A DNA stretch of 64,000 nucleotides, taken from NCBI GenBank assembly GCA_001189495.1, contig CP012068.1, forward strand, positions 62,001 to 126,000, given 5' to 3'. Source of the stretch: Eubacterium sulci ATCC 35585 (GTDB taxonomy: Bacteria > Bacillota > Clostridia > Peptostreptococcales > Anaerovoracaceae). Position 1 is the first letter of the stretch, and each line of letters begins with the position of its first letter. A program made the position numbers and the translations under genes. Under the pieces are notes generated by a model. It did not search any database, was not told the DNA's origin, and saw nothing but the letters and a program-made list of their open reading frames with translations. Below, in pieces: positions 13,446 through 61,442 of the stretch.

Positions 13446-13486
13446 AATACTGCCCTTCCTTTATCCTCGTAAAATCCGGCGATATC

Positions 13487-13642
13487 GCAACGAAGCAGGT
13501 CTTCTGACTTAGGCATCTACACCCTTTACCTTCCCAGATTTATATCCAGTGGATTACAAAGAGCTAAACCATCACAGCGACGGGATCGCGTAAGAATTAC
13601 ACTTACTTCCCTTTTAATCATAGTAATATGAACTCGCGTTGC
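13487..13642 (-). promoter_or_regulatory. Cobalamin riboswitch aptamer (importer operon 8381-13373)
   Basis: Reading the minus strand, the element has closing arms GCAACG/CGTTGC, then AAAAGGGAAGTAAGTG, the B12-box core segments GATCCCGTCGCTGTGA, CTGGGAAGG, and GATGCCTAAGTCAGAAGACC. These are the conserved blocks of the adenosylcobalamin riboswitch in the right order and spacing. It sits 114 bases upstream of the binding-protein gene with a terminator in between. Confidence 0.95.
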
Positions 13643-13681
13643 TTGAATTATTCTTTTTTACAAACTTGGTTTGTTATCTGT

Positions 13682-23623: not shown

Positions 23624-24406
23624 CTATATATCAAAGGTTTCATCAGCTCTTCTCAGCAAAATATCTATTATCTGCTGATACTCGCCGAGTCCCTTGAGTA
23701 TGCACTCCACATCAAAGCCTGCATCTCTAATCATAATCTTGCAGGAATCCTCATCATCGCCACCGATATCGTTTAGCGCATGGTCTCCTGAAACGAATAG
23801 GAGAGGTACTAGCCAAACCTTGCGTGGCTTTAGTTCGCCAAGCTTTGATATTGCACGCTCGATGTCAAGTTCTCCCTCAATAGTTCCTACTATGAAGTTC
23901 TTGTGGCCGATGGAGCCTAGCTGATTTTCTAGCTTCAAATAAACGTCGTCGACCTCGTGGTCACTTCCATGTCCCATCAAAACAAGTGCATCTTCATCCT
24001 CAACAAAAGAGAAGATATCTGCAAGAGCAGCTCCTACCTCGACTAGTGAAGCCTCATCGTGAAGTAGAGCGTGACCTAGCTTTATGCTTGAGAAGTCATC
24101 CTTGCCAGCCTCTAACTGAGCTACGATTTTAGCATACTCTATACCTTCTAGGATATGTGATGGCTGTACTAGGATTTCATCAAAGCCGTCAGCCTTTATA
24201 GCTTCGAGCGCTTCGCTGACATTGTTTACCTTCATGTCATCACGTTTTAGGATTTTTCTCATAATCATTCCGCTAGTCCATGCTCTGTAAACAGGCGCAT
24301 TATCAAAGTGTTCTCCTAGAGTTTTCTCAAATCTTTCGATTGTTAGCTTGCGAGTTTCCTCATAAGAGGTTCCGAAGCTCACCGCCATGATTGCTCTTTT
24401 TGACAT
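23624..24406 (-). CDS. cbiK: Anaerobic sirohydrochlorin cobaltochelatase CbiK
   Basis: CbiK inserts Co(II) into sirohydrochlorin, the first committed step of the oxygen-independent B12 pathway. The 260-residue protein begins MSKRAIMAVSFGTSYEETRK as in the family, with metal-binding histidines in VLMGHGSDHEVDDVYLKLE and in PLLFVSGDHALNDIGGDDED. No signal peptide is present, so it acts in the cytoplasm. A longer frame starts at 24436, but the ATG at 24404-24406 follows GGAAG and avoids overlap. It comes after an ABC-2 exporter pair, whose link to cobalt is unclear. Confidence 0.92.
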   Translation of the reverse strand: MSKRAIMAVSFGTSYEETRKLTIERFEKTLGEHFDNAPVYRAWTSGMIMRKILKRDDMKVNNVSEALEAIKADGFDEILVQPSHILEGIEYAKIVAQLEAGKDDFSSIKLGHALLHDEASLVEVGAALADIFSFVEDEDALVLMGHGSDHEVDDVYLKLENQLGSIGHKNFIVGTIEGELDIERAISKLGELKPRKVWLVPLLFVSGDHALNDIGGDDEDSCKIMIRDAGFDVECILKGLGEYQQIIDILLRRADETFDI

Positions 24407-24435
24407 AATACTTCCTTTCTCTTGGGCAGTGCCCA

Positions 24436-25167
24436 CTATAGATTTTTCTTCTTATATATAAAGTTCATTGAAATAAGCGAGAATACGACAAGATATATCA
24501 CTAAAATTACCATTCCCCATGCATCAAAGCCTTCTCCGCGCGAGATAGACCTCAGCATTTCGCTCGCCTTAGAAAGTGGTAAAACTGAGACGAATTGTCT
24601 AAAGCCATTAGGCATATTATCGGTTGAAAAGAATGTGTTACAGAGGAATGACATCGGCACTATTATAAACGATGTATATCTTGGTGCATCTGTATAGCTC
24701 TTTGCCATAAATGAAAGCGTAAGTGCGATTGTGGCAAACACGGTTCCGTTTAAGAACATGACTAGAAGAGACCAGCCGTTCCAAACAAGTCCCGTTTTGA
24801 GTGGGAAGGTGAGAAGCAGAATCATTGCTGCCGAGTAGATACCGCGCAGACTTCCGCCAATTATCTGCCCCGTGATGAACTGCCAAAGCGGGGTAGGTGA
24901 GACCATTATTTGGTCAAGAGCCTTTTCGTAGAGCCTTTGGACGCTCATGTTTTGGGCAACAGCACCAAAACTTCCCGTCATCGTCGACATAGCCACAAGT
25001 CCTGGAATGAGGAAGTTAATGTAGGGCTCTCCATGTGAGGTGGTCTTTATTCCCATTCCAAAGACAATCAAATATAGAAGAGGGGAGATCATAGCTGAAA
25101 GCGTTATCTTATAGAAATCCCTCTTAAATTCTGCCCATTTTTCCCAAAGAACGGTAACTATACCCAT
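24436..25167 (-). CDS. ABC-2-type transporter permease
   Basis: The 243-residue protein has six membrane segments and the ABC-2 region QRLYEKALDQIMVSPTPLWQ at about residues 96-115, which contacts the ATPase, plus a final PLSKASEMLRSISRGEG element typical of the NodJ/DrrB-like family. It is co-oriented with the ATPase gene 35 bases upstream and cbiK 29 bases downstream. The exported compound is unknown. Confidence 0.85.
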   Translation of the reverse strand: MGIVTVLWEKWAEFKRDFYKITLSAMISPLLYLIVFGMGIKTTSHGEPYINFLIPGLVAMSTMTGSFGAVAQNMSVQRLYEKALDQIMVSPTPLWQFITGQIIGGSLRGIYSAAMILLLTFPLKTGLVWNGWSLLVMFLNGTVFATIALTLSFMAKSYTDAPRYTSFIIVPMSFLCNTFFSTDNMPNGFRQFVSVLPLSKASEMLRSISRGEGFDAWGMVILVIYLVVFSLISMNFIYKKKNL

Positions 25168-25202
25168 TTAAATCTCCATATCTCGATATCCGAGTTTGCA
25201 TC

Positions 25203-26045
25203 TTACTTTCTTCCGAGTCCTCTTCCGATTCTCTCGATAAATACATCTTCTAGCGTCGTTTCCCTCATGCTAGCCTTAGTGTCCGTACGGCTTAGATACT
25301 CAATTGCTCCGCTCTTTTCGGCAAAGTAACGACTTTTGATTTCCTCGTTAATTATCTCATCGATTGCATAGTTTCCAAGCTCGTCAATCAATGCCTGAGG
25401 CGTATCCACGGTGTCTAGTCTTCCCTTGTTTATCAAAGCGATTCTATCGCAGAGAGACTGCGCTTCCTCTATGTAGTGCGTCGTTAAGATGATGGTCATT
25501 TTGTTGCTGTTTATCTTTCTAAGCAAGTTCCACATCTGCCTTCTGGAAAAGGCATCCATGCCCGCAGTCGGCTCATCGAGCAAAAGAATCTCAGGCTCAA
25601 CCATCAAAGCCCTGCATATCATGAGTTTGCGCTTCATTCCGCCCGAAAGATGTCTTACAATCTTGTGCCTATACTCGAGAAGTCCTGTAAACTCAAGGAG
25701 CTCCTCCGTCTTTTGACGAATGAGCTTCCTAGGCATATAGTAGAGCCTGCCCTGATATTCCATGACCTCATCCATGGTCATGTCCTGCCTCATAGAATAT
25801 TCCTGAGTGATTACACTGAGTCTGCGCTTTTGCGCTAGATTGCGTCTTGTAAGTTCCTCTCCGTCTATGAGAATCTTGCCATCACTAGGCAAAAGAACAG
25901 TTGAAATCATACTAATGGTCGTGGTTTTACCTGCACCGTTAGGCCCAAGCAGTCCAAAGAACTCCCCTGTCTCTATCCTGAGATTGAGATTATCTACAGC
26001 TATATGATCGCCGAAGCGCTTTGTTAGATTACAAAGTTCTATCAT
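25203..26045 (-). CDS. ABC transporter ATPase (DrrA-like, for ABC-2 permease)
   Basis: The 280-residue ATPase has Walker A GPNGAGKTT at about residues 34-42, Q-loop VITQEYSMRQDMT, signature HLSGGMKRKLMICRAL, Walker B ILLLDEPTAGMD and switch TTHYIEEA. The C-terminus TTLEDVFIERIGRGLG is the DrrA/CcmA-type ending. GGAG lies 8 bases before its ATG. It would power the neighbouring permease as an exporter. Confidence 0.9.
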   Translation of the reverse strand: MIELCNLTKRFGDHIAVDNLNLRIETGEFFGLLGPNGAGKTTTISMISTVLLPSDGKILIDGEELTRRNLAQKRRLSVITQEYSMRQDMTMDEVMEYQGRLYYMPRKLIRQKTEELLEFTGLLEYRHKIVRHLSGGMKRKLMICRALMVEPEILLLDEPTAGMDAFSRRQMWNLLRKINSNKMTIILTTHYIEEAQSLCDRIALINKGRLDTVDTPQALIDELGNYAIDEIINEEIKSRYFAEKSGAIEYLSRTDTKASMRETTLEDVFIERIGRGLGRK

Positions 26046-26047
26046 AT

Positions 26048-26078
26048 TTGCATCTCCAAAAGTCTTTTATGATATAAT
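26048..26078 (+). promoter_or_regulatory. Promoter giving a near-leaderless transcript
   Basis: TATAAT at 26073-26078 with TTGCAT at 26048-26053 (19-base spacer) puts the expected transcription start at or next to the ATG at 26085. No Shine-Dalgarno sequence precedes that ATG. Confidence 0.45.
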
Positions 26079-26084
26079 CATCAT

Positions 26085-26792
26085 ATGAAAAAGATAAATT
26101 TATTAAAAACAAAAATATTTTGCCTGCTAACAATCTGCTTCCTGCTCATTCCGAGCAGTACTTTCGCCCTTGGCGATTACGATGAAGTAGAGGCAGAGTC
26201 CGCCCTGAAATACGGCATGACCCCGATTTCAGCATCCGAAGTGAAAAACGGTAGCTTTGATATTATGGTATTATCTAGCTCAAGATTTTTCAAGCTAGAG
26301 CTATCTAGCATCACATCAAAGGATGGCGAGCTTACAGCGCTTGTAAACATCAAAAGCAAAAGCTACAAATACGTATATCTTGGAACTGCCGAAGAAGCCT
26401 CAAAGGCCGATGAGTCTAAGCTCATTCCTGTGACCATAGACGGGGAACACTCACATTTTGAGATTCCGCTAAAGAACCTTAACTCCGATGTTCCATGCGC
26501 GGCCTTCAGTATCAAAAGGCAAAAATGGTATAACAGAAATATAGTTTTCGATGCTTCAAGCCTTCCTGATAAGGCGCTAAACTTCAAAACGCCTAACTAC
26601 GATTTAATTGAAAAATCAACGAAAGAATACATTAAGAAGCATAATCTCAGCAAGGATGTCCTCGGCGAAAAGCCTAAGCAAATCGAAATAACTGAGGACC
26701 AAAACACAGTCAAAAAGATACTCGCTGTCGCATTTGCGGTGATGATTATCGGCGGTGTTTTGAACCACTTTGTGAAGCGCAGGCGCAGGTAG
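26085..26792 (+). CDS. Secreted protein with C-terminal membrane anchor, unknown function
   Basis: The 235-residue product has a signal peptide (about residues 1-28, ending STFALG) and a C-terminal hydrophobic helix (KILAVAFAVMIIGGVLNHF) followed by basic KRRRR, so it is exported and held by a tail anchor. The middle part is about 170 residues of mixed strands with no family I recognise; there is no LPxTG-like motif. It is divergent from the ABC exporter with a 39-base gap and may be co-regulated. The end of the gene runs into a GC-rich repeat. Confidence 0.65.
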   Translation: MKKINLLKTKIFCLLTICFLLIPSSTFALGDYDEVEAESALKYGMTPISASEVKNGSFDIMVLSSSRFFKLELSSITSKDGELTALVNIKSKSYKYVYLGTAEEASKADESKLIPVTIDGEHSHFEIPLKNLNSDVPCAAFSIKRQKWYNRNIVFDASSLPDKALNFKTPNYDLIEKSTKEYIKKHNLSKDVLGEKPKQIEITEDQNTVKKILAVAFAVMIIGGVLNHFVKRRRR

Positions 26793-26877
26793 AGGCCGCT
26801 GCGCGAGGGCCGCGCATCAAAGTCTTTTAACAAGCTAAGCGCGAGCCTGTCCATGGGCGCAGGTAGAGGCCGCTGCG
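26782..26877. repeat. Pair of 22-bp GC-rich direct repeats
   Basis: GGCGCAGGTAGAGGCCGCTG plus CG occurs exactly at 26782-26803, overlapping the stop codon of the upstream gene, and at 26856-26877. The 74-bp unit between copy starts is much richer in GC than its surroundings. No open frame or RNA family is recognised. Confidence 0.7.
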
Positions 26878-26891
26878 TACAAGGCCTCTGA

Positions 26892-26920
26892 AATATAGCC
26901 GGGACCGGCTATATTTTTTA
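26892..26920. terminator. Bidirectional terminator, end of the corrin operon
   Basis: AATATAGCCGG and CCGGCTATATT form an 11-bp stem with a short loop, flanked by T-rich DNA in both directions. It overlaps the cbiL stop codon by three bases. Confidence 0.85.
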
Positions 26921-27610
26921 TTTTTCCTTGTTTTCTTTTGCGATTATCAGGGAAAAATATCCTGCGCCGTCAGGAATCTCCTCTACGCTGTAATATTTGT
27001 TTTCATTTGGAAGACCGCAGTTTTCCACCATATTTACCTTGCGTCCACTTGCTTTAAGGATTTCCTTAACCTTAGGCATCTGCCTTCCGCTTTTCATCAG
27101 AACATAGCTTCCATCTAAAGCAAGTTTATCATCAAGCTGATGTACAGCAGGAATAACATGAAGCGGCTCCTGCCACTCGGTTAGCGGAATACCTAGGCTT
27201 GCTGCAGCAGCGCAGAAGGAAGTTATTCCACTGACATACACAGTCTCAAAACCATGGTTCTTAACTATTTTCTCAAGATAGGAGAATGTCGAGTAAACCG
27301 TTGTATCTCCAAGTGTTATAAAGCCAACGCTCTTGCCCTCTGCAAGAACCTTTTCTATAGTCTCTGCTCCGCTCTTATGAGCTTTTAGGAGCAGCTCCTT
27401 ATCCATGGTCATCGGCATGTCGATAGGAAGCATCTCCTTTTGCTCGATTTCTGGAACCGCTTGAACAGCGATTCTGTATGCTAGCGTTTCCTTCACATCA
27501 GTTCCAGGTGCCGCAATAACATCGACTTCCTTCATCATTCTAACTGCCTTAAGCGTAATATGCTCTGGATCTCCAGGCCCTATACCTATTCCGTAGAAAA
27601 TACCCTTCAT
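26918..27610 (-). CDS. cbiL: Precorrin-2/cobalt-factor II C20-methyltransferase
   Basis: The 230-residue SAM-dependent enzyme methylates C20 of the corrin precursor. It has the tetrapyrrole-methylase P-loop GIGIGPGDPEHITLKA at residues 6-21, VGFITLGDTTVYSTFSYL at about 97-114, the VSGITSFCAAAASLGIPLTE segment and a C-terminal EEIPDGAGYFSLIIAKE typical of CbiL/CobI. The ATG at 27608-27610 follows GGAGGG; a longer frame to 27628 has no ribosome site. With a CbiK present, the cobalt-factor II form is the likely substrate. Confidence 0.9.
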   Translation of the reverse strand: MKGIFYGIGIGPGDPEHITLKAVRMMKEVDVIAAPGTDVKETLAYRIAVQAVPEIEQKEMLPIDMPMTMDKELLLKAHKSGAETIEKVLAEGKSVGFITLGDTTVYSTFSYLEKIVKNHGFETVYVSGITSFCAAAASLGIPLTEWQEPLHVIPAVHQLDDKLALDGSYVLMKSGRQMPKVKEILKASGRKVNMVENCGLPNENKYYSVEEIPDGAGYFSLIIAKENKEK

Positions 27611-27636
27611 TTTCCCTCCAATTCGCATTGCGAAAT

Positions 27637-29076
27637 CTATTTATTCAGCTCGCAGATAAGCCTTCCAATCCCTTGGACAGAATGCTCCTTAGCTACTGAA
27701 AACTCTCTGTCAGTTCTATTTTTGAGCTCTCTTGCGGTGATATCACCTATGCAGATAATCTCTGCATTAGGAAGCTTCTGACTTTCAAAAAAGGCCCTTA
27801 CCCCTGCAGCACTTGCAAACACTAGATAGTGGCAGTCCTCAAACTTCTTAATATCAAAATCTGAGCCTGTCTGTACCGTGTCATAAATCTTTCTATCATC
27901 AAAGCTTACACCTTTTTCCTCGAGCTTTTCGTTAAGCTCAGGTGATCCACCTAGTGCTCTGAGAATCAAGATTTTTTCTCCAGCGCATTTCTCAGCTAGA
28001 AGCTCCCCAAGGCTTGCAGCTGTATATTTTTCGGGCATTAAGTCTGCTATGATGCCGTGTTCTCTTAGCTTTGATGCGGTACCGGTACCTATGCAGGCAA
28101 ATTTCAGATGCCCTAGACACCTTATATCCATTCCCCTTGCTTTGATTTCATCAAAGAAAATATCTATTCCATTTGCACTAGTGAAAACGATCCATCCGTA
28201 GTCACTAAAGTCTTCAGGAATTTCACTAGCATTTGGCGCAAGCTCAAGGCAAACCATACTTTCTACAAAAGCTCCAAGCTCTTCTAAATGCTCAGTGAGC
28301 CTAGAAGTAAAGGATCTAGTTCCCGTTATAGCTACGCGCTTTCCGTCAAGCGGCCCCTTACCCTTGCTTTCCATATGAAAACCTGCAACCTCGCCGACCA
28401 CAAGAATTCCCGGTGATTCAGCAAGCTTAGCCTTCTCTGCGATATCGCCTAGACATCCGTCGATTCTCTTTTCTCTTCCCGAAAAACCTCTGCAAACTAT
28501 GGATGCAGGAAGATCTGGTGATTTTCCATTTTTGATAAGATTTTCGCTTATCTCAGCTATCGAGTTGATGCCCATGAGAAAGATCAAGGTTCCATTTAGC
28601 TTTGCAAGTGCTTCGTAGCTTTCAGTCTTACTACTTGCACTGTGCCCCGTTATGACCGTAAAGGACTGCGCAATTCCGCGATGTGTTACAGGAATTCCAA
28701 GGCTTTCTGGTACTGCTATACAGGAACTGATTCCCGGGATTAGCTCACAGTCTATGCCCTCAGCCTCAAGCGCAAGATATTCCTCACCACCGCGACCGAA
28801 TACAAAGCTGTCTCCACCCTTAAGCCTTGCAACTAGCTGTCCCTTTTTTGCTTCCTCTATCAAAATTTCGTTTATATCAGGCTGGGTTTTGCTGTGCTTA
28901 GCAAAGCGCTTCCCCACATAAATCCTCTTACAATCATCCCTGACCTCGCCTAGGAGTTTGTCGTCTATCAAGTCATCGTAAACGAGGACATCCGCCTTTT
29001 TCAGTGCCTTTAGAGCCTTAACTGAAATTAAACCTCTGCCACATCCAGCACCTATAAGCTGTACTTTACCTCTCAT
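27637..29076 (-). CDS. cobA-hemD: Uroporphyrinogen-III methyltransferase/synthase fusion (CobA-HemD)
   Basis: The 479-residue protein fuses two enzymes. Residues 1-240 are SUMT/CobA: VQLIGAGCGRGLISVKALK, VYDDLID, LKGGDSFVFGRGGEE and GIPVTHRGIAQSFTVITGH, which makes precorrin-2 from uroporphyrinogen III. Residues 245-479 are HemD: GKRVAITGTRSF, WIVFTSANGIDIFF, ACIGTGTASKL and the HYLVFASAAGVRAFF ending, which closes hydroxymethylbilane to uroporphyrinogen III. This fusion is common in Clostridia. Its ATG overlaps the hemC stop as TAATG. Intermediates could be passed along the operon products. Confidence 0.93.
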   Translation of the reverse strand: MRGKVQLIGAGCGRGLISVKALKALKKADVLVYDDLIDDKLLGEVRDDCKRIYVGKRFAKHSKTQPDINEILIEEAKKGQLVARLKGGDSFVFGRGGEEYLALEAEGIDCELIPGISSCIAVPESLGIPVTHRGIAQSFTVITGHSASSKTESYEALAKLNGTLIFLMGINSIAEISENLIKNGKSPDLPASIVCRGFSGREKRIDGCLGDIAEKAKLAESPGILVVGEVAGFHMESKGKGPLDGKRVAITGTRSFTSRLTEHLEELGAFVESMVCLELAPNASEIPEDFSDYGWIVFTSANGIDIFFDEIKARGMDIRCLGHLKFACIGTGTASKLREHGIIADLMPEKYTAASLGELLAEKCAGEKILILRALGGSPELNEKLEEKGVSFDDRKIYDTVQTGSDFDIKKFEDCHYLVFASAAGVRAFFESQKLPNAEIICIGDITARELKNRTDREFSVAKEHSVQGIGRLICELNK

Positions 29077-29954
29077 TAAATCTCCTCCGTAAGCATAGAC
29101 AAAACTAGCTGGCTAAGCTCCTGCCTATCCTCAAAGCTTCCATCTACGCAAACCTTTCTCTCATCCTTAAGTGCCATCAAAGTGACACTGTCTCCCTCAA
29201 TTTTTGCATGAACACCAAGAGCAGACTTGCAGTCAGCCTTGAGCTTGCAGAACACACTTCTCTCTAAATCAAAGCGTCTTTTCGTATCAAAGTCTGAAAC
29301 CTCTCCTAGTAGCCTTACTATTTCCTTATCCTCACTACGGCATTCTATCGCAATGATTCCCTGACATGCAGCAGGAATCATCTCCTCACTCGAAAACTCG
29401 TAAACATCATAAGGACTAAGGTCTATATTGAGCCTATCAAGAGCAGCTCTAGCAAGAATTATTGAATCATACTCGCCAGACTCAAGCTTCCCAAGCCTTG
29501 TATCAATGTTTCCCCTAAGGCTCTTAAACTCGACATTTTCGTCGATGGCAAGATACTCGCAAATTCTTCGCGGGCTTCCCGTTCCAATTACCTTCTTTGC
29601 ACTATTTTCGGCTGTGCAGGTCCCATCGCTCTTAAGCGATATGAGACAATCTGCAGATGATGCTGCCTTCGGAACACCTGCAATTACAAGGCCTTCCGCA
29701 AGTTCATAGGGAAGATCCTTTGCTGAGTGAACAGCAATGTTCGCGCTCTTGTTGAGCAAAGCCTTTTCGATTTCACGCACAAAAAGACCATCTCCGCCTA
29801 TTTCATGAATTGGACGGTTTTGGTCCTTGTCACCCTTTGTTTTTACAATGAGAAGCTCGCACTCAAAGCCCTTTGCTTCTATCAATGCCTTGACCTGCTC
29901 AGCCTGAGTCAGGGCAAGTTTACTTCCTCTTGTCGCTAAAACTATTTTTCGCAT
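29076..29954 (-). CDS. hemC: Porphobilinogen deaminase (hydroxymethylbilane synthase)
   Basis: HemC joins four porphobilinogens into hydroxymethylbilane. The 292-residue protein has the family's LATRGSKLALTQAEQVKALI start, KTKGDKDQNRPI, GLFVREIEKALL, VHSAKDLP, GTGSPRR and LRGNIDTRLGKLESGEYDSI. The cofactor-binding cysteine is in KLKADCKSALGVHAKI near residue 235. The ATG at 29952-29954 follows a weak GAAGAG and overlaps the upstream gene by 35 bases, indicating coupling. Confidence 0.93.
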   Translation of the reverse strand: MRKIVLATRGSKLALTQAEQVKALIEAKGFECELLIVKTKGDKDQNRPIHEIGGDGLFVREIEKALLNKSANIAVHSAKDLPYELAEGLVIAGVPKAASSADCLISLKSDGTCTAENSAKKVIGTGSPRRICEYLAIDENVEFKSLRGNIDTRLGKLESGEYDSIILARAALDRLNIDLSPYDVYEFSSEEMIPAACQGIIAIECRSEDKEIVRLLGEVSDFDTKRRFDLERSVFCKLKADCKSALGVHAKIEGDSVTLMALKDERKVCVDGSFEDRQELSQLVLSMLTEEI

Positions 29955-30558
29955 CACAATACTCTTCTATTATCTTATCTACATTAGCTTCATCTAAATC
30001 ATCCATGCTCAAAAGCTTTGACATAACATAATTATAGATTTTACTGCGCTCCTCCTGTGAATCCACCTTTGATGGTAGGCTCTTTCGAAGCTCGCCCATG
30101 ATGTCCAGCACCTTCTCGATATTGTCTGGGATAATATCCTCAATCTGCTCTCTCAAATGCCTTGAGTAAGCAGGGCTTTTTCCCGAGGTGGAAACACTGA
30201 CAACAAGATCTCCCCTTTTGATTATACCTGGAAGAAAGAAATCGCATTCCTCCCTGTCATCTGCCGCGTTTACGGGTATTCCTCTAGATTTACATGCTGC
30301 CACTATGCCCTCATCCTGCTCTCTGCTTCCCGTTGCAGTAATTACAAAATCAAAGCCCTCTAGGTCTTTCTCATCAAAGCACTTATTAACGACCTTAAAG
30401 CCTTCGCGAGCTAAGCCTTCGGCCCCTTCCTTTGATATAACTGTAATATTGCTCGTGAATTCGCTTATCGCCTTAAGCTTTCTTTTCGCAATCCTACCAT
30501 AGCCTACAATCAAAAAGCGTTTGTCCTCGAGATTTATACAAAGTGGAAATCTGTTCAT
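29920..30558 (-). CDS. Precorrin-2 dehydrogenase (Met8/CysG N-terminal domain type)
   Basis: The 212-residue protein oxidises precorrin-2 to sirohydrochlorin with NAD. It has an N-terminal Rossmann site RFLIVGYGRIAKRKLKAISE at residues 14-33 (a glycine-rich loop with Y-G-R where many have G-G-G), VITATGSREQDE, PVNAADDREECDFFLPG with the catalytic aspartate region, and the SVSTSGKSPAYSRHLREQIE motif. It lacks the methylase half of full CysG, which the CobA-HemD fusion supplies. Its sirohydrochlorin would feed CbiK. Confidence 0.9.
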   Translation of the reverse strand: MNRFPLCINLEDKRFLIVGYGRIAKRKLKAISEFTSNITVISKEGAEGLAREGFKVVNKCFDEKDLEGFDFVITATGSREQDEGIVAACKSRGIPVNAADDREECDFFLPGIIKRGDLVVSVSTSGKSPAYSRHLREQIEDIIPDNIEKVLDIMGELRKSLPSKVDSQEERSKIYNYVMSKLLSMDDLDEANVDKIIEEYCDAKNSFSDKRK

Positions 30559-30573
30559 ATCCTTACTCCATCA

Positions 30574-31167
30574 CTAGCTTTGCATCTTGCGCATAATAGG
30601 TACAAGTCTGTAAGCCAAAACCGCTGCAAGCATGCAAATTACGGTATCTGGAATAACTGTACTTAGGAACCATACGCTAAATAGCTGAGCTATACCGATA
30701 CCCTCAGTTCCTGAAATCACAAAGTTAAACATTATGAAGTAGTAGATTAGTCCGCAAGCATAGTAAGCCATCTCGCCTATGAACGCAGCAATTGCAAGCT
30801 TTGGAAGGCTTGGCTTTCCATCTCTGCTAGAAAGCATCCCTGTAAACAGCGCCGCAAAAGCAAATCCAATCAGGAAGCCGAATGTAGGTCTAAGCAGATA
30901 TCCTAGTCCTCCTCCGTGAGCAAATACAGGAATTCCTATAAGTCCTATAATCAAATATGTTAGAACCGACACAAATCCGTTTCTTGCTCCAAGCAAAAAT
31001 CCCGCAAGCAGTGCAAAGAACACCTGTAGTGATATTGTTACCTCAAAAACTCCTAGTGGCAGTGTAATTTTAATAAACGCTCCAACTGCCATAAGCGCTG
31101 TGAAGAGACCGCAGTAAATAACATCCTGTGTTCTAAAGCCTCTTCTATTCTTCTCTACATTACTCAT
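30574..31167 (-). CDS. bioY: Biotin ECF transporter S component BioY
   Basis: The 197-residue membrane protein has six predicted helices and BioY hallmarks: ALMAVGAFIKITLPLG, a LQVFFALLAGFLLGARNG stretch, and GIPVFAHGGGLGYLLRPTFG with the glycine-rich loop that forms part of the biotin site. It needs the shared EcfA/EcfT module encoded elsewhere, or may work alone. Its placement within a corrin/haem operon is unusual; no biotin operator (BirA box) was noticed upstream. A different vitamin ligand is conceivable but the motifs favour biotin. Confidence 0.85.
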   Translation of the reverse strand: MSNVEKNRRGFRTQDVIYCGLFTALMAVGAFIKITLPLGVFEVTISLQVFFALLAGFLLGARNGFVSVLTYLIIGLIGIPVFAHGGGLGYLLRPTFGFLIGFAFAALFTGMLSSRDGKPSLPKLAIAAFIGEMAYYACGLIYYFIMFNFVISGTEGIGIAQLFSVWFLSTVIPDTVICMLAAVLAYRLVPIMRKMQS

Positions 31168-31201
31168 TTAAAAAACTTTCTCCTATAACCCTTTCTGTTA
31201 A

Positions 31202-31723
31202 CTAGCGTTCTATACCATCGCGAGCCTTAACCCCGCTGGAATAGTAGTGCCTTGTCTCCTGAATCTCAGACACTAAATCCGCCTTCTCAATTATATAATC
31301 AGGCGCATACCTTCCCGTCAAAACAAGCTCCGTCCCTTCAGGCTTCGCTTCCATCAAAGCCAAAACCTCAGACTCAGCCAGAAGCTTAAAATAGCAGCAA
31401 ATCGTAATCTCATCCAAAATCACAAGATCGTAGCTGCCATCGCGGAGAGCCTCCCTCGCCCTCGCAAGCCCATCCTCAGCACTCCTATAATCGTTCTCAC
31501 TCGGCACACCGCTCATCATACAGCCGTCAATGCCGTAGAGCTCCACTGTGATTTCAGGAAAGCGCTCCTTTATTAGCTTGATTTCGTTATATTCTATACT
31601 CTTAACAAACTGGCCGATGTAAACCCTGAGCCCCGCACCTGCTGCTCTCACCGCAAGTCCAATCGCTGCCGTAGTCTTACCTTTGCCGTTTCCTGTGTAC
31701 ACTTGAATATACCCTTTTTCCAC
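31202..31723 (-). CDS. Cob(I)alamin/cob(I)yrinic acid a,c-diamide adenosyltransferase (CobA/BtuR type)
   Basis: The 173-residue enzyme attaches the adenosyl group of ATP to Co(I) corrinoids. The P-loop GNGKGKTTAAIGLAVRAAG is at residues 11-29, then IGQFVK, YDLVILDEI and the ELVLTGRYAPDYIIEKADLV segment with a trailing tyrosine-rich YYSSGVKARDGIE ending, all typical of CobA/CobO. It heads the corrin operon and works on scavenged as well as newly made corrinoids. Symbol left empty to avoid confusion with the methyltransferase also called cobA. Confidence 0.93.
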   Translation of the reverse strand: MEKGYIQVYTGNGKGKTTAAIGLAVRAAGAGLRVYIGQFVKSIEYNEIKLIKERFPEITVELYGIDGCMMSGVPSENDYRSAEDGLARAREALRDGSYDLVILDEITICCYFKLLAESEVLALMEAKPEGTELVLTGRYAPDYIIEKADLVSEIQETRHYYSSGVKARDGIER

Positions 31724-32077: not shown

Positions 32078-33639
32078 CTACTTGATTTTAATTGTGTTCC
32101 AGATAACATCCTGATACACTGTTGCAGCGAGCTTTAGCTCTCCAAGTCTCTTGTTGTATGTTATCATTCTGTTTGGATAGTATAGAGGAATTGTAATCGC
32201 TTCATCGTTCATGTACTTGAAGATAGCGTCATACTTTGCTGGTCTCTCATCTTCCTTGTATGTAGCAAGTACATCGTTAATCATCTCTGTTAGCTTATCG
32301 TCGCTCCAGAAAATACCCTTTGACTGGTCACTATTGCGGAATACGCTCTTTAGGAAGCCGTGTGGGTTCCATGAATCCTCGTAAGAACGGTAGATGATTA
32401 GGTCGTAGTTTCTATTCTTCCAAATTACATCGTAATATGCGCTGACTTCCTTCTCCTCGAGCTGAATATCAACACCAATCTTCTTGTACTCTGACTTTAG
32501 GTACTGGCAAATTGTCTTCCAGTTTGCATACTCTCCTGTCTGGAAAACTAGCTTAAGTGACAAAGCCTTGCCGTCCTTTTCTAGGATTCCATCTTTAGAA
32601 GCTCCTTTGCCTTTTTGATATCATAAGCATATCCAGGGCTGTTCTCCTCGCTTACATAAGGAACCTTGTTTGAGAAAACGCCTTTTGCTGGAACTCCTTC
32701 GTTATTTATAAGCTCTTTAACCAGTGAATCTTTGTTTGTAGCATAGTTTAGAGCCTGTCTTACTTTGACATCTTGAAGAGCAGGGTTATCATAGTTGATT
32801 CCTAGGAAGAATGACTGTGTTGACTCCTCCTTAAGAGTTGCTAGTTCCTTATCCTCTTCAATTTTCTTCATATCCTCTGAAGGAATGTCAGCAAGGCTCA
32901 AATCAGCCTCTCTGCTCTGAAGCGCCATTGTTCTTGCCTGTCCGTCCTTTACTTCCTTGATGACTAGCTTTTCAAAAGATGGCTTTTCTCCCCAGTAATT
33001 AGGATTTGGTACTAGCGTTACTTCTGAACCTGACTTATAGTCTTTGACCATCCACTGACCTGTTCCGATAGGCTCTTTGAACTTGCCATCAGAATCAATA
33101 CTTGCCTTAGCTAGCATTCTGTAAGGTCTTGGGTATGTGAATTCAATTATGATAGGATATGCTGCCTTCTCAAAAGTAAACTGAACTGTGTAATCGTCAA
33201 TTTTCTTAACATCTAGAAGCTTTGCTGAGAAATTTGAGCGTATCTTATCATCCCAGCGGTCTGTATTGAATAGAACGCTATCAGCGTTGAAATCTTCCCC
33301 ATTGCTGAACTTAACGCCCTTTCTAAGATGGAATGTGTAAACTGTACCATCATCGCTAATCTCATATGATTCAGCTAGGGCTGGTTCAATTTTTCCATCC
33401 TTACCATATCTTACTAGTGGATCATAGACAAGCTCGTAGAACTTAATTACTGTTGCACTAGTATCAACAGTATCTGCTGCTTCTGGCTTTATATCACCAG
33501 ACATCATAGCTGTAACAGTCTTACTGTCTGCACTTGTTTTCTTTGTCTCCTTGTTGTCCTTACAACCCATCAAACCAAATGCCATTGCGCAAATAATCGC
33601 CATCACTGTAGTAACTTTTAAAAGTCTTTTCTTTCTCAT
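32078..33639 (-). pseudogene. Family 5 solute-binding lipoprotein, interrupted by one frameshift
   Basis: Two frames together make one SBP_bac_5 protein. The N-terminal part (32581-33639) has a lipoprotein signal ending AFGLMGCKD and runs to ...[12 protein letters not shown]; the C-terminal part (32078-32563) resumes at ALSLKLVFQTGEYANWK. Adding a single A to the AAA at 32594-32596 restores a continuous reading ([18 protein letters not shown]) and a full protein of about 520 residues. The start chosen is the ATG at 33637-33639. It belongs to the riboswitch operon with the methyltransferase and four transporter genes. The shift is either a true mutation, slippage or a sequencing error. Confidence 0.85.
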
Positions 33640-33656
33640 TTTCTCTTTGTCTCCTT

Positions 33657-34604
33657 TCAACGATTAAACTTATTACAAGCGATAAAATTGTTATCTTCAA
33701 ATTCCCTTAGAATAGGTCTATTACAGTCACAAATCGCCTCACGCTGGGTGCAGCGATTTCTGTATACGCACCCTTCAAAAACCTCTTCAACGTAATCATA
33801 TTCCTTCGCAGACTCATTGATAAAACTTCTCTTTCGAGGATCTGCACAAGGGATTGACTTAAACAAATCAATAGAATATGGATGCTTAACAATTTTCTCT
33901 AAATCTGTTTTGACGAAGTCGAGCTCAACTATATTGCCCCTATACATGATTGCAACCTTTTGACATAGGTCCTTCACATTCGACAGGTCGTGAGTAATCA
34001 AAAGATAGGTTATGTCCGTTGTCTTCCTTATCTCCTGTAGCAATTCGAGAATCTGATGGCGAATAGCATAGTCTAAGCTCGCAACAGGCTCATCGCATAT
34101 CAAAAGCTTTGGCTTTAGTATCAAAGACCTTGCTATATTTGCTCTCTGACATTGTCCACCTGAAAGCTGAGATACATACTTCTTCTGAAAGCTATTTGGA
34201 AGCTTAACTACCTCAAATATCTCATCTAAACGCTTTTGACACTCTTTGTGACTGAGCTTCTCGTGTGCAAGCAGTACTTCTCTTATGCTATCGCCGATTG
34301 TATAGTTCGGATTAAAAACCGACTTGCTGTACTGAAATATCATCTGTACATCTTTTCTCAGTGGTCTTAGCTCTCTCTCCTTCATCTTTGCTATGTTACT
34401 ACCATTAAAGATAATATCTCCCTTTGTTGGCTTCTCTATGCCCATGATTAGCTTTGCCAGTGTAGTTTTTCCACATCCACTTTCACCAATTAGGGCTAGT
34501 GAGCTATTTTTAGTTATTTCTAAAGAAATGTCACAAACTGCTGGAAGTTTATCTTTTTTGCTATAAAACTTTGTTAAATTTCTTATTTCCAATAGTGGTT
34601 TCAT
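33657..34604 (-). CDS. Peptide/nickel-type ABC importer ATPase (DppF-like)
   Basis: The 315-residue ATPase has Walker [10 protein letters not shown] at about residues 39-47, Q-loop [13 protein letters not shown], signature [16 protein letters not shown] and Walker [13 protein letters not shown]. The C-terminal cysteine-rich tail ([16 protein letters not shown]) is the oligopeptide-permease extension that in relatives may hold an iron-sulfur cluster. It overlaps nothing but lies 17 bases from the binding-protein start. Part of the operon beginning at 37968. Confidence 0.9.
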
Positions 34605-38024: not shown

Positions 38025-38097
38025 TATAAAGTACGAAAAAACAATGTAACAAAGTAATCTGCCTACAATGAATCGCTCTCCCAGAAGCTACATTGAA

Positions 38098-38262
38098 ATT
38101 CTCAGCAGGTTTCCTGACTTGCAGATCATCATTCCTCTTCTCCTTCTCATGCTAATGCACAATGGATCCCGAAAAGGAACTCCTTGCTTACAGTGACCGG
38201 ATCGCTCAGGATTCTCACCTGATTCCCTTTTAACTTTAAATATGCGGTAAATATTCTCGCAC
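38098..38262 (-). promoter_or_regulatory. Cobalamin riboswitch aptamer (operon 32078-37968)
   Basis: The minus strand carries AAAAGGGAATCAGGTGAGAA, the B12-box GATCCGGTCACTGTAAGC, GGAGAAGAGGAATGATGATC in place of the usual GGGAAG segment, and GCAAGTCAGGAAACCTGCT. These are the conserved blocks in order. It precedes the methyltransferase and importer genes by about 130 bases. Confidence 0.93.
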
Positions 38263-38287
38263 ACTAAAGCACTGAAAACTTTTCTCA

Positions 38288-38317
38288 AATATATCATTAA
38301 GCACCTTTCCTTGTCAA
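38288..38317 (-). promoter_or_regulatory. Promoter of the second riboswitch operon
   Basis: Consensus TTGACA (38312-38317) and TATATT (38288-38293) with an 18-base spacer on the minus strand. Confidence 0.7.
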
Positions 38318-40990: not shown

Positions 40991-41048
40991 TTGCGTGAAT
41001 ACAAGAATACTGCCCTTGAAATTGGTTTACAAGAGAGCTTGGATAATT

Positions 41049-41077
41049 GACATTTGCCCTATTTTTTAGTATCATTA
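41049..41077 (+). promoter_or_regulatory. Promoter of the third riboswitch transcript
   Basis: Consensus TTGACA (41049-41054) and TATCAT (41072-41077) with a 17-base spacer, placing the transcript start just before the aptamer. Confidence 0.75.
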
Positions 41078-41099
41078 TTGTTAACTGAATAATATGTGT

Positions 41100-41250
41100 T
41101 CTTTTAATTGAAAGCGAAGATGGAAACAGGTTAAAGTCCTGTGCGGTACCGCCACCGTAAGCGTGTAGTTTCTCTATATATCACTGAGAGATTGGGAAGA
41201 TTGAGAAATGTAAATACGTAAGCCGGGAGACATGCACAAAAATTATCTTG
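41100..41250 (+). promoter_or_regulatory. Cobalamin riboswitch aptamer (surface protein gene)
   Basis: The plus strand reads GATGGAAACAGGTTAAAGTC, the B12-box GCGGTACCGCCACCGTAAGC, ATTGGGAAGATTGAGAAATG and AAGCCGGGAGACATGCAC. The blocks and order match the adenosylcobalamin class; the B12 box has CACCG where CACTG is commoner. TTGAGAAAT (41201-41209) inside it is perfectly complementary to ATTTCTCAA (41262-41270) just beyond the aptamer, a likely switching helix. Confidence 0.92.
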
Positions 41251-41296
41251 TATTTGAGCGGATTTCTCAAAAGATGACATGATATTGTAATTCTGG

Positions 41297-41321
41297 AGCA
41301 CACATTTTTTGTGTGCTTTTT
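41297..41321 (+). terminator. Riboswitch expression-platform terminator
   Basis: AGCACAC and GTGTGCT pair around ATTTTTT, followed by TTTTT, 41 bases before the gene start. Confidence 0.85.
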
Positions 41322-41361
41322 CCATTCCTGCTTTTATTTAAGAGAGAAAACGGGAGGAAAC

Positions 41362-44300
41362 ATGAAAACCTTATTGACTAAATCTAAGCTTTACGCTCTG
41401 ATTTTGGCATTTTTCTTGGTATTATCTACCATGCCAATGGCAGCTCAGAACGTATTTGCAGACACAACACTTGGCGTAGATAGTGACGGCTATTTGCTCA
41501 TCACAAGCGAAGACGAACTAGTCGAGCATCTGATGAGTGCTAACAAAGCATATAAGCCCGAGTTATCCAAGAATTTTAGGTTAACAAAGGACCTAGATTT
41601 ATCAAAGTATACCAAGCTAAGAAACATCGGCAGAAGTGGAAACTATGAAAGCAATCCACTCTTTAAGGGAAACTTTGATGGAAACGGTCATACAATCAGA
41701 AATGCTAATCTTAACGAAGGCGGTATATTCAGCAATATCGACACTAATGCGAGCGTAAGAAATCTAACCATTGAAAACGCAAGCGTAAGTGCAAAGAGCA
41801 CCGAATATCCAGGCATACTCGCTAGCAAAAACCTAGGTACAATTGAAAACTGCAGGGTAATAAACTCAAATATTAACTCAAGTCAGAGCGGTACAGGTGG
41901 TTTTGTTGGCCAGAATTCTGGCACCATATCAAAAAGTGCTGTAATCAATACTAATGTAAATGCTGAAAAATCCATGCAGGTAGGCGGTTTTGCTGGATTT
42001 AATGGTTACGCAGGTAAAGTTGGAACTATAGACCAGTGCTTTGCCGATGCAAATGTTTCTGGAAAAATGAATGTTGGTGGCTTTGTTGGAAAAGCAGAGA
42101 AAGGAAACATCTCAAACTCCTATGCCCTTGGAAGCGTAAAAGCTAACTCAAATGAAAAGATAGGTGGCTTTGCTGGTGTACTAGCAAGCCCATCACAGCT
42201 AAAAAATATATATGTAAGTTCTGATGTAAATGCAAACTCAGGTGGTGCAGTCGCTGGTTGGAAGGGTTCTAGCTTTGCTAGCCCTGGCGAAATAGTCAAC
42301 AGCTACTATAACAGTGAAAAAGCAAAGCCAGCTACAGAAATGCAGGAGTACGGCGGAGTAAGCGGAAAAACTTCAGCTGAAATGGTATCACCTAGATTTC
42401 TTGGAGAGATAGCAGGTAGCACAAGCGGAGTTTGGGCACAGGATGCAAACCATAACAATGGAATGCCTTATCTTGCAGCAGTGCCTACACCAGAGACGGC
42501 ACCTGCAGTTCCACCTAAGGATCCGGTTAAGTTTGTAATTTGTAACTATAACAAGGATACAAATACCTTTAAGAAGCTCAAAGAATTCACGGTTCAGCCA
42601 GAGAAAGAAGACAATGTGGTTTTGGATCTAATGAAGAGGGCTAGAGATGAAAATAAGTTCAGCTTCACAAGCGAAGAAAGCAGCTGGGGCGAATTTGTAA
42701 CAAGCATAGACGATATCCAGGCTCCAAAGCCTGATGGATGGATGTTTAATGTAAACGACGTGCAGTCGCCAGTAGGTGTAAGCACAGCAAGCTTTGATGG
42801 CGGAGAAACCATACTTTGGTTCTACGGCTGCGACCAGAACCACTACAAGGCACCTCCACTAACAGAGATTGAAAATCCAGCAGAAGAGTTTGTCGAGATA
42901 AACTCTAAGGAAGACCTTATGAAGCTTTCAGGAACAACTGATGACCAGCTTCTAAGCAAGAACTACAAGCTAAACAAGGACATAGACCTAGAGGGCGTAA
43001 AGTTTGAGCCTATCGGAAGTCTAGAGCATCCTTTCACTGGTAAGTTCTACGGTGAAAAGCATAGCATCAAGAACCTCACCATAGAAAAAGACAAGAATTC
43101 AAAGGGAGTTGGATTCTTTGGGGCAATCAAAGGCTCTGTAGTAAAGGATCTAAACATTGAAAATGCAAATGTTAAGGGTGGTGCAGTAATAGGAGTTTTG
43201 GTCGGCGAAGCTCAGGTAGATGCAGCTGCAGGCAAGAACAACCTAATCGCTCACTGCAAGGTTTCAGGTACAGTCGAAGCAAAGGGCGAAAGAGTTATAA
43301 AGGTTGCAGATGCTGGCGGACTCGTTGGTGCAGCTCAGGAAAAGACAGATCCTAACACCTACGATTATGCGACAACAACCATCTTTGATGCACATGCAGA
43401 CGTAAAAGTCACAGCAGACACGGGTGCAAACGACAAGGCAATCTCAGGCCACGTAGGCGGACTCGTAGGACATAATAAGGGTAAGATCATCGATTCTACA
43501 TCAAAAGGAGACATCCTCGGCGGAAACACCACAGGTGGACTCGTAGGATATAACGATGGTTCAGTAAGAGGATCAAGTGCTACAGGAAATGTAAAGGGTG
43601 CATTTAATGTCGGCGGTTTCCTCGGTGGCTCAGGTCCTTATAGCGCAACAAAGGACAGCTACTCAACAGGTGATGTAAAGCCAGTCGAAGGCTCCAAGGC
43701 TGAGTTTATCGGAGGCTTTGCAGGAACAGTTTCTGGCAAGGTTGAAAACTGTGTAAGCACAGGAACAGTAACACCAGGCTGGTCTTGGAACGGAGGCTTT
43801 GCAGGAAAGATAGACGGCCCTATCACAGGTCCAAATGCTGCAGTCAAGGATTGCTACGGAAACTGCAATGATTTCAACAATGAAACTCTAAAGGCATTCG
43901 GAAGCTACTTGCCAAATCCATCAGACACAGCACTTACAGAAGCAGCTGAGAAGATGCAGGTAGACAAGAAGACAGCTGAAGACCTTGCAAACGACAAGTT
44001 TGGAGCAAACATCAACCACGAAGAAACTCAGAGCAAGCTAGACATCGAAAGAGTCGAATCAAAGATAGTAGTTCCAAATCCTGTTTTGTTAGACAGTGAA
44101 GATGTTCTAAACAGCTCAAGAGCTGCAGTTGATAGCCTAACAAAAGAGCAGCAGAAGAAGCTCAATAAGGACAAGCTAGAGGCTCTAGAGAAAGCCGAAA
44201 AGACTCTAAACAAGATTAAGACAGAGCCTACACTAGACTTCCTTGATTCTAAATCACTAAACAGCGGATTCAATGTAGAGTTTGACGGAAGCTTTGGAAA

Positions 44301-44754
44301 GGTAAAATTCGAAGAAGCCAAGGCAGAAGGTCTAAAGCTCAGAGTTGATTCAGACTATAGGTACTTTGCAGACGCGAGCGGAAATCTCCATCCAAATGCA
44401 AAGGTAAGCATCAATATAGACGGTGTAGAAAAGACACTTGTTTACGGTACAGACTATACTTCCGAAGAAGGTAGTACAATTATAAGCTTTGCACCTACTT
44501 TCCTGAAATCTCTAAAGCCAGGAAGCTATGTAGGAAGAATCCAGACAAATGCTGGATTTGCAGAGTTCTCTCTATCCGTTCAAAGCAAGCGAGCTGTAAT
44601 TGCTCAAACTACTGGAACTGGAGCTACAAGCAAAGCTAGACTTGGCAGAATAAACACAGGTGATAGCACAAATACAATGGCATTTGTAATCTTCCCTGCC
44701 GCTATATTGGCTGCAATAGGTATTGCATTAGGAAGAAGAAAATTCCACAAATAA
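41362..44754 (+). CDS. Cobalamin-regulated wall-anchored protein with GLUG repeats and DUF4430 domain
   Basis: The 1130-residue protein has a signal peptide (about residues 1-33, ending NVFADT). GLUG-type repeats (GGFVGQNSGTISKS and similar) fill about 80-340, a DUF4430 transcobalamin C-terminal-like domain about 387-495 (DGWMFNVNDVQSP...SFDGGETILWFYG), and a second GLUG block about 509-840. A helical stretch is at 870-953, and an Ig-like domain at 956-1076. The tail RINTGD, a hydrophobic helix and RRKFHK form a variant sorting signal. The ATG at 41362 follows GGGAGG. The cobalamin riboswitch upstream implies repression by B12. I infer a cell-wall corrinoid- or cobalt-ligand-binding protein. 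An adhesin role for the GLUG parts is the alternative. Confidence 0.85.
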   Translation: MKTLLTKSKLYALILAFFLVLSTMPMAAQNVFADTTLGVDSDGYLLITSEDELVEHLMSANKAYKPELSKNFRLTKDLDLSKYTKLRNIGRSGNYESNPLFKGNFDGNGHTIRNANLNEGGIFSNIDTNASVRNLTIENASVSAKSTEYPGILASKNLGTIENCRVINSNINSSQSGTGGFVGQNSGTISKSAVINTNVNAEKSMQVGGFAGFNGYAGKVGTIDQCFADANVSGKMNVGGFVGKAEKGNISNSYALGSVKANSNEKIGGFAGVLASPSQLKNIYVSSDVNANSGGAVAGWKGSSFASPGEIVNSYYNSEKAKPATEMQEYGGVSGKTSAEMVSPRFLGEIAGSTSGVWAQDANHNNGMPYLAAVPTPETAPAVPPKDPVKFVICNYNKDTNTFKKLKEFTVQPEKEDNVVLDLMKRARDENKFSFTSEESSWGEFVTSIDDIQAPKPDGWMFNVNDVQSPVGVSTASFDGGETILWFYGCDQNHYKAPPLTEIENPAEEFVEINSKEDLMKLSGTTDDQLLSKNYKLNKDIDLEGVKFEPIGSLEHPFTGKFYGEKHSIKNLTIEKDKNSKGVGFFGAIKGSVVKDLNIENANVKGGAVIGVLVGEAQVDAAAGKNNLIAHCKVSGTVEAKGERVIKVADAGGLVGAAQEKTDPNTYDYATTTIFDAHADVKVTADTGANDKAISGHVGGLVGHNKGKIIDSTSKGDILGGNTTGGLVGYNDGSVRGSSATGNVKGAFNVGGFLGGSGPYSATKDSYSTGDVKPVEGSKAEFIGGFAGTVSGKVENCVSTGTVTPGWSWNGGFAGKIDGPITGPNAAVKDCYGNCNDFNNETLKAFGSYLPNPSDTALTEAAEKMQVDKKTAEDLANDKFGANINHEETQSKLDIERVESKIVVPNPVLLDSEDVLNSSRAAVDSLTKEQQKKLNKDKLEALEKAEKTLNKIKTEPTLDFLDSKSLNSGFNVEFDGSFGKVKFEEAKAEGLKLRVDSDYRYFADASGNLHPNAKVSINIDGVEKTLVYGTDYTSEEGSTIISFAPTFLKSLKPGSYVGRIQTNAGFAEFSLSVQSKRAVIAQTTGTGATSKARLGRINTGDSTNTMAFVIFPAAILAAIGIALGRRKFHK

Positions 44755-61388: not shown

Positions 61389-61442
61389 AGATTTCATCCT
61401 TTCTCTTTATAAATACTCGTCATTAAAGATTTGCAAAAAAGT

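Follow-up and report, generated by a model that had tools for sequence, protein, structure and literature searches.

A cobalamin riboswitch ahead of a surface-type protein with a transcobalamin-like domain in Eubacterium sulci: a candidate for corrinoid capture

We analysed a window of 64,000 nucleotides (the whole stretch of DNA under study, positions 62,001 to 126,000 of contig CP012068.1, forward strand) from Eubacterium sulci ATCC 35585, in which a cobalamin riboswitch stands before the gene of a large secreted protein, here called P0001, a candidate for the capture of corrinoids at the cell surface. The unit contains the following features, given in positions of the window:

41047..41075, plus strand: sigma-70-like promoter TTGACA-17-TATCAT (11 of 12 letters; both hexamers kept in the sister genome G005)
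41079..41253, plus strand: cobalamin riboswitch aptamer RF00174 (covariance-model match, 83.4 bits)
about 41297..41321, plus strand: terminator-like hairpin and T run, the expression platform (predicted fold)
41352..41357, plus strand: ribosome-binding site GGGAGG (sequence, by eye)
41362..44754, plus strand: coding sequence of P0001, a secreted surface protein of 1130 residues (ATG start at 41362; ortholog in G005)
41974..42138, plus strand: GLUG repeat block 1 (matches at E<=0.001)
42616..42828, plus strand: DUF4430 (transcobalamin-beta-like) domain, residues 419-489, modelled as 385-507 (Pfam and predicted structure)
43444..43773, plus strand: GLUG repeat block 2 (matches at E<=0.001)
44044..44631, plus strand: C-terminal region, residues 895-1090, common to other surface proteins of this genome and of G005 (blastp)
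44653..44754, plus strand: anchor-like tail with NTGD, a hydrophobic stretch and RRKFHK (sequence, by eye)

The aptamer upstream of P0001 covers the whole RF00174 model (model positions 1-189) with an E-value of 4.6e-19, its score being well over the cut-off of 31.5 bits. The promoter motif match is weak by itself, as the scan gave three promoter-like sites where 1.8 were expected; its credibility comes from its position directly before the aptamer and from its conservation in G005. The leader hairpin at about 41297-41321 is present in both the minimum-energy and the centroid folds, and it was not among the sites listed by the terminator pattern scan. The riboswitch is predicted to act as a transcription-terminating off-switch under the control of intracellular B12. 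In G005, the near-complete genome of a sister species, the orthologous aptamer scores 84.8 bits against RF00174 and a full-length ortholog of P0001 shows 87% identity; besides aptamer and protein, the promoter boxes and the terminator region are also conserved between the two genomes. The comparison of the two proteins gives a synonymous divergence (dS) of 1.17 and a nonsynonymous divergence (dN) of 0.073, that is a dN/dS of 0.063, and the ratio is 0.087 for the DUF4430 region.

The N terminus of P0001 is signal-peptide-like, judged by eye. Its GLUG repeats (PF07581) were found at E 4.4e-23 and 80.5 bits (cut-off 20.5) as six stretches in two blocks, and the DUF4430 domain (PF14478) at E 1.4e-9 and 38.7 bits (cut-off 23.8). 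Apart from these two families, the Pfam scan up to E 1 returned one weak phage-tail match and nothing else. The promoter, aptamer, terminator, secreted 1130-residue protein, two GLUG blocks and single DUF4430 domain described in the first-pass annotation, which had been made from the sequence alone, are thus borne out by the scans and the fold. The wall-sorting tail that it also described is anchor-like in its composition but not canonical, since NTGD stands in place of LPXTG; two sortase matches over cut-off are present in the genome. P0001 may be displayed on the cell wall.

For the fold comparison, residues 385-507 of P0001 were modelled with the help of 44 DUF4430 domains taken from public genomes. 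The model's mean pLDDT (predicted local distance difference test) is 74.8, with two loops below 50. All 19 matches at E<=0.001 in the Foldseek search of the PDB are haptocorrin, intrinsic factor, transcobalamin or 3u7z, and they include 5np4, the transcobalamin beta domain with cyanocobalamin. The animal B12 carriers hold ranks 1-15 in Foldseek and ranks 1-14 in VIA-align, the latter with haptocorrin at a Z-score of 12.5 (99 residues, 2.4 A), intrinsic factor at 12.0-12.2 and transcobalamin at 10.9-11.7, compared to 10.6 for 3u7z and 8.3 for the first unrelated fold. The first-pass annotation had proposed likeness to the C-terminal domain of transcobalamin as a test, and the predicted structure indeed finds its best matches there. 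The model suggests that the DUF4430 domain of P0001 shares the beta-domain fold of the transcobalamin, intrinsic factor and haptocorrin family. A shared fold is by itself no proof of cobalamin binding, and P0001 may bind corrinoids. A link by sequence from the DUF4430 profile to transcobalamin was dropped, being visible only in the fold search and in a weak single-sequence search of the PDB, where the transcobalamin-2 chains come at E 0.59 to 1.7. Short fish sequences consisting of the DUF4430 domain alone are mentioned in the part of one source that was available (PMC4350170).

The co-occurrence of DUF4430 with cobalamin riboswitches, which had also been suggested as a check on the first interpretation, was found to be frequent across a set of 61 relatives. 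These genomes hold 87 DUF4430 matches, 6 of them below the Pfam cut-off, in 76 open frames. The RF00174 matches listed for the 61 genomes number 150, at 68.7 bits and up, with full lists for the home genome (G000) and G005. A frame was called direct when it lies on the same strand as a riboswitch match and within the length of the open frame plus 400 bases of it. At least 23 of the 76 frames are directly under RF00174 and at least 36 have a same-strand RF00174 match within 15 kb upstream, where about 0.24 and about 1.1, respectively, are expected from density, these estimates being based on rounded genome sizes and on the listed riboswitches only. Among the matches listed, the same-strand downstream control gave 4 direct frames and 12 within 15 kb, a control inflated at places with clustered riboswitches or with a riboswitch behind the gene, and the opposite-strand controls gave 0 direct and 2 within 15 kb upstream, and 0 and 0 downstream. 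With thiamine pyrophosphate (TPP) riboswitches, 0 of 76 frames were direct and 4 of 76 within 15 kb; 14 listed TPP sites were used, 11 of them on contigs with a DUF4430 match, and no others were noticed on these contigs when the list was read. The four cases come from G044 and G055; in both, the cobalamin cluster is preceded by a TPP site. A further control with GLUG, whose frames were collapsed by hand to 34, gave 4 direct frames among the matches listed, two of which are P0001 and its ortholog. Still among the matches listed, 13 of 32 frames of at least 700 residues are direct, as are 10 of 44 shorter ones.

These data bear on the possibility that the aptamer of P0001 is a functionless relic or a chance match. 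Such an explanation would agree with two other RF00174 matches of the home genome, 346390 with 26.5 bits and 376441 with 25.2 bits, neither of which reaches the cut-off; that of P0001 has been kept together with its promoter and terminator region at the dS given above, and the same arrangement recurs in other families. We rank this explanation last because the unit is conserved and the link recurs, and its probability appears negligible.

In three relatives, a riboswitch leads a small DUF4430 gene (132-355 residues) followed by a membrane-type protein of 169-181 residues, at the following positions:

L190, 915-2487: small DUF4430 gene and membrane-type gene
L191, 4651-6226, minus strand: the same pair
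L193, 828-1729: the same pair

The membrane-type protein was scanned in one case and matches nothing in Pfam up to E 0.001.

In other families, DUF4430 occurs in riboswitch-led clusters with importers of the energy-coupling factor (ECF) type. Clusters with the ECF T, A and S components were found in G044 (L188), G055 (L189), G046 (L184) and G051 (L183), and clusters with T and A in G052 (L180), G057 (L181), G040 (L182), G024 (L186) and G058 (L196), several of the latter being cut by the ends of the fetched stretch. A large DUF4430 protein is present in all these riboswitch-led ECF stretches except that of G058, and in G040 and G051 the riboswitch is separated from DUF4430 by at least four other genes. 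Another DUF4430-rich stretch, G052:C17 (L197), shows no riboswitch among the matches listed. Six of the eight large proteins scanned from DUF4430 clusters carry SLH-type domains (L184, L186, L187, L185, L181 and L180), and those of L188 and L189 carry Cu_amine_oxidN1 instead. In L184, DUF4430 is paired with an alpha/alpha toroid over the Pfam cut-off, and weaker toroid-type matches were obtained for L180, L186 and L189; a toroid with DUF4430 is the kind of domain pair seen in animal B12 carriers. The toroids of L184 and L180 were rejected as transcobalamin relatives by sequence, as they gave only weak geranylgeranyl transferase or squalene-hopene cyclase matches.

The home genome carries a second DUF4430 protein beside an ECF S component, whose best solved relative is 6fnp (E 3.7e-7). 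This structure is ECF-CbrT, a transporter of cobalamin and cobinamide, and its S component is itself called a substrate-binding protein in the available part of the source (PMC5997447). In 80 public DUF4430 loci, most titled as Bacillota groups, an ECF T component lies on the same strand within 8 kb in 69 and an S component in 60; these counts stand without a random-gene control and many of the contigs are truncated. Eighteen public loci (16 of them isolates by title, together with L104 and L084) were scanned for RNA, of which 8 have a same-strand upstream cobalamin riboswitch and 11 have one anywhere in the locus. Loci titled Bacillus, Paenibacillus and Lysinibacillus likewise show DUF4430 laid out with ECF genes. 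The position of DUF4430 beside B12-type ECF importers in relatives fits a hand-over of the ligand to an importer.

P0001 is one member of a larger regulon. The home genome of 1.74 Mb contains 12 RF00174 matches, 10 of them over cut-off, and 5 of these 10 precede large secreted proteins. Besides P0001, these are a protein of 1794 residues with CWB2, Big_3 and a PQQ-type propeller match, one of 886 residues with BspA-type leucine-rich repeats, one of 847 residues with SHIRT and Big_2, and one of 1569 residues with CWB2. The two matches below cut-off precede two further surface proteins, one of 1529 residues with CWB2 and one of 646 residues. In G005, 13 riboswitches are over cut-off and 9 of them stand before large surface proteins, among which the home five all have their orthologs, with 77-87% identity. 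Our own DUF4430 profile detects the domain in the 847-residue protein (residues 80-186, 18.9 bits) and in its G005 ortholog (23.0 bits), and the Pfam model places DUF4430 in G005 proteins L176 and L178 over cut-off and in L171 below it (20.7 against 23.8). The riboswitches before three surface proteins (L011, L012 and L014; G000:C1:255605, 465340 and 376441) are short, about 125-144 nucleotides compared to 175-212 for most, and they are also weaker (25-45 bits); they may represent a variant class with another ligand preference. The interpretation given in the first-pass annotation is supported in part, for its fold and its riboswitch link; the annotation described a single protein, and it had mentioned neither the regulon outside the window nor the two further cobalamin riboswitches inside it, which are listed here with the B12 genes:

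13478..13652, minus strand: third cobalamin riboswitch, leading a NikA-like substrate-binding protein (11883-13373)
23624..31723, minus strand: B12 and uroporphyrinogen genes (CbiK-like, CbiL, CobA-HemD, HemC, CysG N-terminal, CobA adenosyltransferase)
38087..38291, minus strand: second cobalamin riboswitch, leading a methyltransferase and nik/opp-type operon (37968 down to 32078)

The NikA-like gene of this riboswitch-led nik operon reads in two frames (window 32078-33660, minus strand), and the same gene is also in two frames in G005 (L165:5090-6696) with different break points. Elsewhere in the home genome, one over-cut-off riboswitch leads a cbi/cob operon. It opens with a gene for a lipoprotein that looks CbiK-like by eye and one for a secreted, NEAT-like protein, a start (L015:14130-15709, minus strand) that is conserved in G005. 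The putative CbiK-like gene is the one at L015:14816-15709. The NEAT-like protein matches PF05031 at E 1.7e-4, below cut-off, and NEAT chains of the PDB at E 1.9e-4. At L023, a riboswitch-led protein of 252 residues is followed by a substrate-binding protein, a FecCD permease and an ATPase, a set of the BtuFCD/Fec type; the 252-residue protein is NEAT-like by eye only and has no NEAT match in Pfam. A cobalamin riboswitch of 106 bits leads a gene of 267 residues in both the home genome (L017:2672-3885) and G005 (L164), and the genes that come next look helicase- and ligase-like by eye. The window also codes for a surface-type protein of 1841 residues with an NTGD tail (55872-61397, minus strand), which has no adjoining RF00174 match and matches neither Pfam, up to E 1, nor NCBIfam.

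The composition of this regulon raises the question of the ligand, which could be another compound linked to the B12 economy, such as haem or another tetrapyrrole, or cobalt or nickel. Such a ligand would agree with the NEAT-like protein beside the cbi genes, with the class of the L023 importer, which also serves haem and siderophores, with the nik-type operons and with the title of 3u7z as putative metal binding. We nevertheless consider it quite improbable, as the S component linked to DUF4430 finds the B12 transporter CbrT first and as the folds matched belong to B12 carriers. The B12-controlled, adhesin-like architectures, in an organism whose host association is putative, could also point to piracy, the surface proteins binding host B12 carriers such as haptocorrin and not the free corrinoid. 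This is very improbable in our judgement: DUF4430 resembles a carrier and not the receptor of a carrier, and host carriers are less likely in the Bacillus, Paenibacillus and Lysinibacillus loci that also combine DUF4430 with ECF genes.

Our preferred reading, which we hold to be probable though far from settled, is that P0001 is a wall-displayed corrinoid-capture protein, repressed by B12 through its riboswitch and feeding CbrT-like ECF and BtuFCD/Fec-type importers. It joins what was computed here, namely the riboswitch, the domain with its fold match, the conserved unit, the statistical link of DUF4430 to riboswitches and the adjacency of DUF4430 to ECF genes, with an off-switch action, a wall display, a corrinoid binding and a hand-over that we infer. 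At low intracellular B12, transcription would pass the terminator, and P0001 would be made together with several other surface proteins and shown on the wall. Its DUF4430 domain, between the two GLUG blocks, would grip a corrinoid. This ligand would then move by way of membrane-anchored DUF4430 or NEAT-like proteins to CbrT-like ECF and BtuFCD/Fec-type importers.

Several observations weigh against corrinoid capture by P0001. Among the RF00174 matches listed, 40 of the 76 DUF4430 frames have no riboswitch within 15 kb upstream, and no riboswitch was found before the home ECF and DUF4430 operon in L018:1-8400, even up to E 10. A full-length ortholog of P0001 was found in just 1 of 12 same-genus relatives, many of the others being incomplete assemblies. 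In the single-sequence PDB search, of 8 rows, a lectin (E 0.014) stands above haptocorrin (E 0.022); a 45-row DUF4430 profile found no transcobalamin or other B12 carrier by sequence in the PDB, and P0001 shows no alpha-domain (alpha/alpha-barrel) match in Pfam up to E 1. The organism carries its own B12-synthesis genes, so that corrinoid capture would add to this production or salvage precursors and other cobamides. The strongest counter-evidence comes from co-regulated adhesin-like proteins, since those of 1794, 886 and 1569 residues have no convincing DUF4430 with either Pfam or our own profile, and from G020, in which two very large GLUG-related proteins (L198 and L199, belonging to another genus) are under cobalamin riboswitches with no detected DUF4430. 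Both keep alive a B12-regulated adhesion programme, in which the riboswitch reports the niche, the GLUG, BspA-type leucine-rich repeat, SHIRT and CWB2 proteins bind host or partner cells at low B12, and DUF4430 is one of many accessory folds. We regard such a programme as unlikely, although it is the most serious of the alternatives: DUF4430 itself is strongly tied to cobalamin riboswitches and to B12-type ECF importers, and its predicted fold is that of B12 carriers.

Corrinoid capture by P0001 can be extended to a Gram-positive counterpart of the Isd system for B12, a joint claim that we put forward tentatively, its chances falling slightly short of even. Here, riboswitch-derepressed wall proteins with transcobalamin-beta domains, together with NEAT-like proteins, would relay corrinoids to ECF and BtuFCD/Fec importers, and relatives would use alpha/alpha-toroid and DUF4430 pairs laid out like animal B12 carriers. 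In the open literature searched, with preprints and most subscription journals outside it, we found no link of bacterial DUF4430 or of a Gram-positive wall protein to B12 capture, and the extracellular capture of B12 by Gram-positive bacteria is little described there. The three cobalamin riboswitches of Clostridioides difficile are listed, in the available part of a review, over B12 synthesis, cobalt import and a BtuCDF-like importer only (PMC11477304). The parts of the P0001 system are of known kinds, and their combination appears to be new. If capture by P0001 is true, it would provide a testable surface protein and riboswitch regulon for Gram-positive B12 capture and a role for bacterial DUF4430. 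The B12-type ECF importers would gain an extracellular binding partner and the human B12 carriers a bacterial parallel, with a bearing on microbial competition for B12. If the wider Isd-like relay is true, it would point to an earlier use, on bacterial surfaces, of the two domains that animal B12 carriers pair.

Finally, the P0001 system can be compared to known ones. The beta domain of animal B12 carriers is alike in the predicted fold of residues 385-507, whereas P0001 is a bacterial wall protein with GLUG blocks, riboswitch control and no alpha-domain match. The bacterial domain 3u7z (RUMGNA_00854 of Ruminococcus gnavus) is also alike, at the Z-score given above, but it is a crystallised domain of 97 residues titled as putative metal binding. 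ECF-CbrT is the best solved relative of the DUF4430-linked S component of the home genome, and differs in that the home importer genes sit with an extracytoplasmic DUF4430 protein. The L023 set resembles BtuFCD and BtuFCD/Fec-class importers in its substrate-binding protein, FecCD permease and ATPase, but it is preceded by a protein that looks NEAT-like by eye, and its ligand assignment is putative. In the Isd-type haem relay of Gram-positive walls, wall proteins hand a tetrapyrrole to an importer under starvation control; the wall-to-importer idea and the NEAT-like protein of the home regulon recall this relay, whereas control here is by cobalamin riboswitches and the capture fold is DUF4430. 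BtuG and BtuH of Bacteroidetes are surface B12-binding lipoproteins that capture B12 before import, and P0001, likened to them by description only, would share this surface capture, theirs being an outer-membrane system of Gram-negative bacteria.

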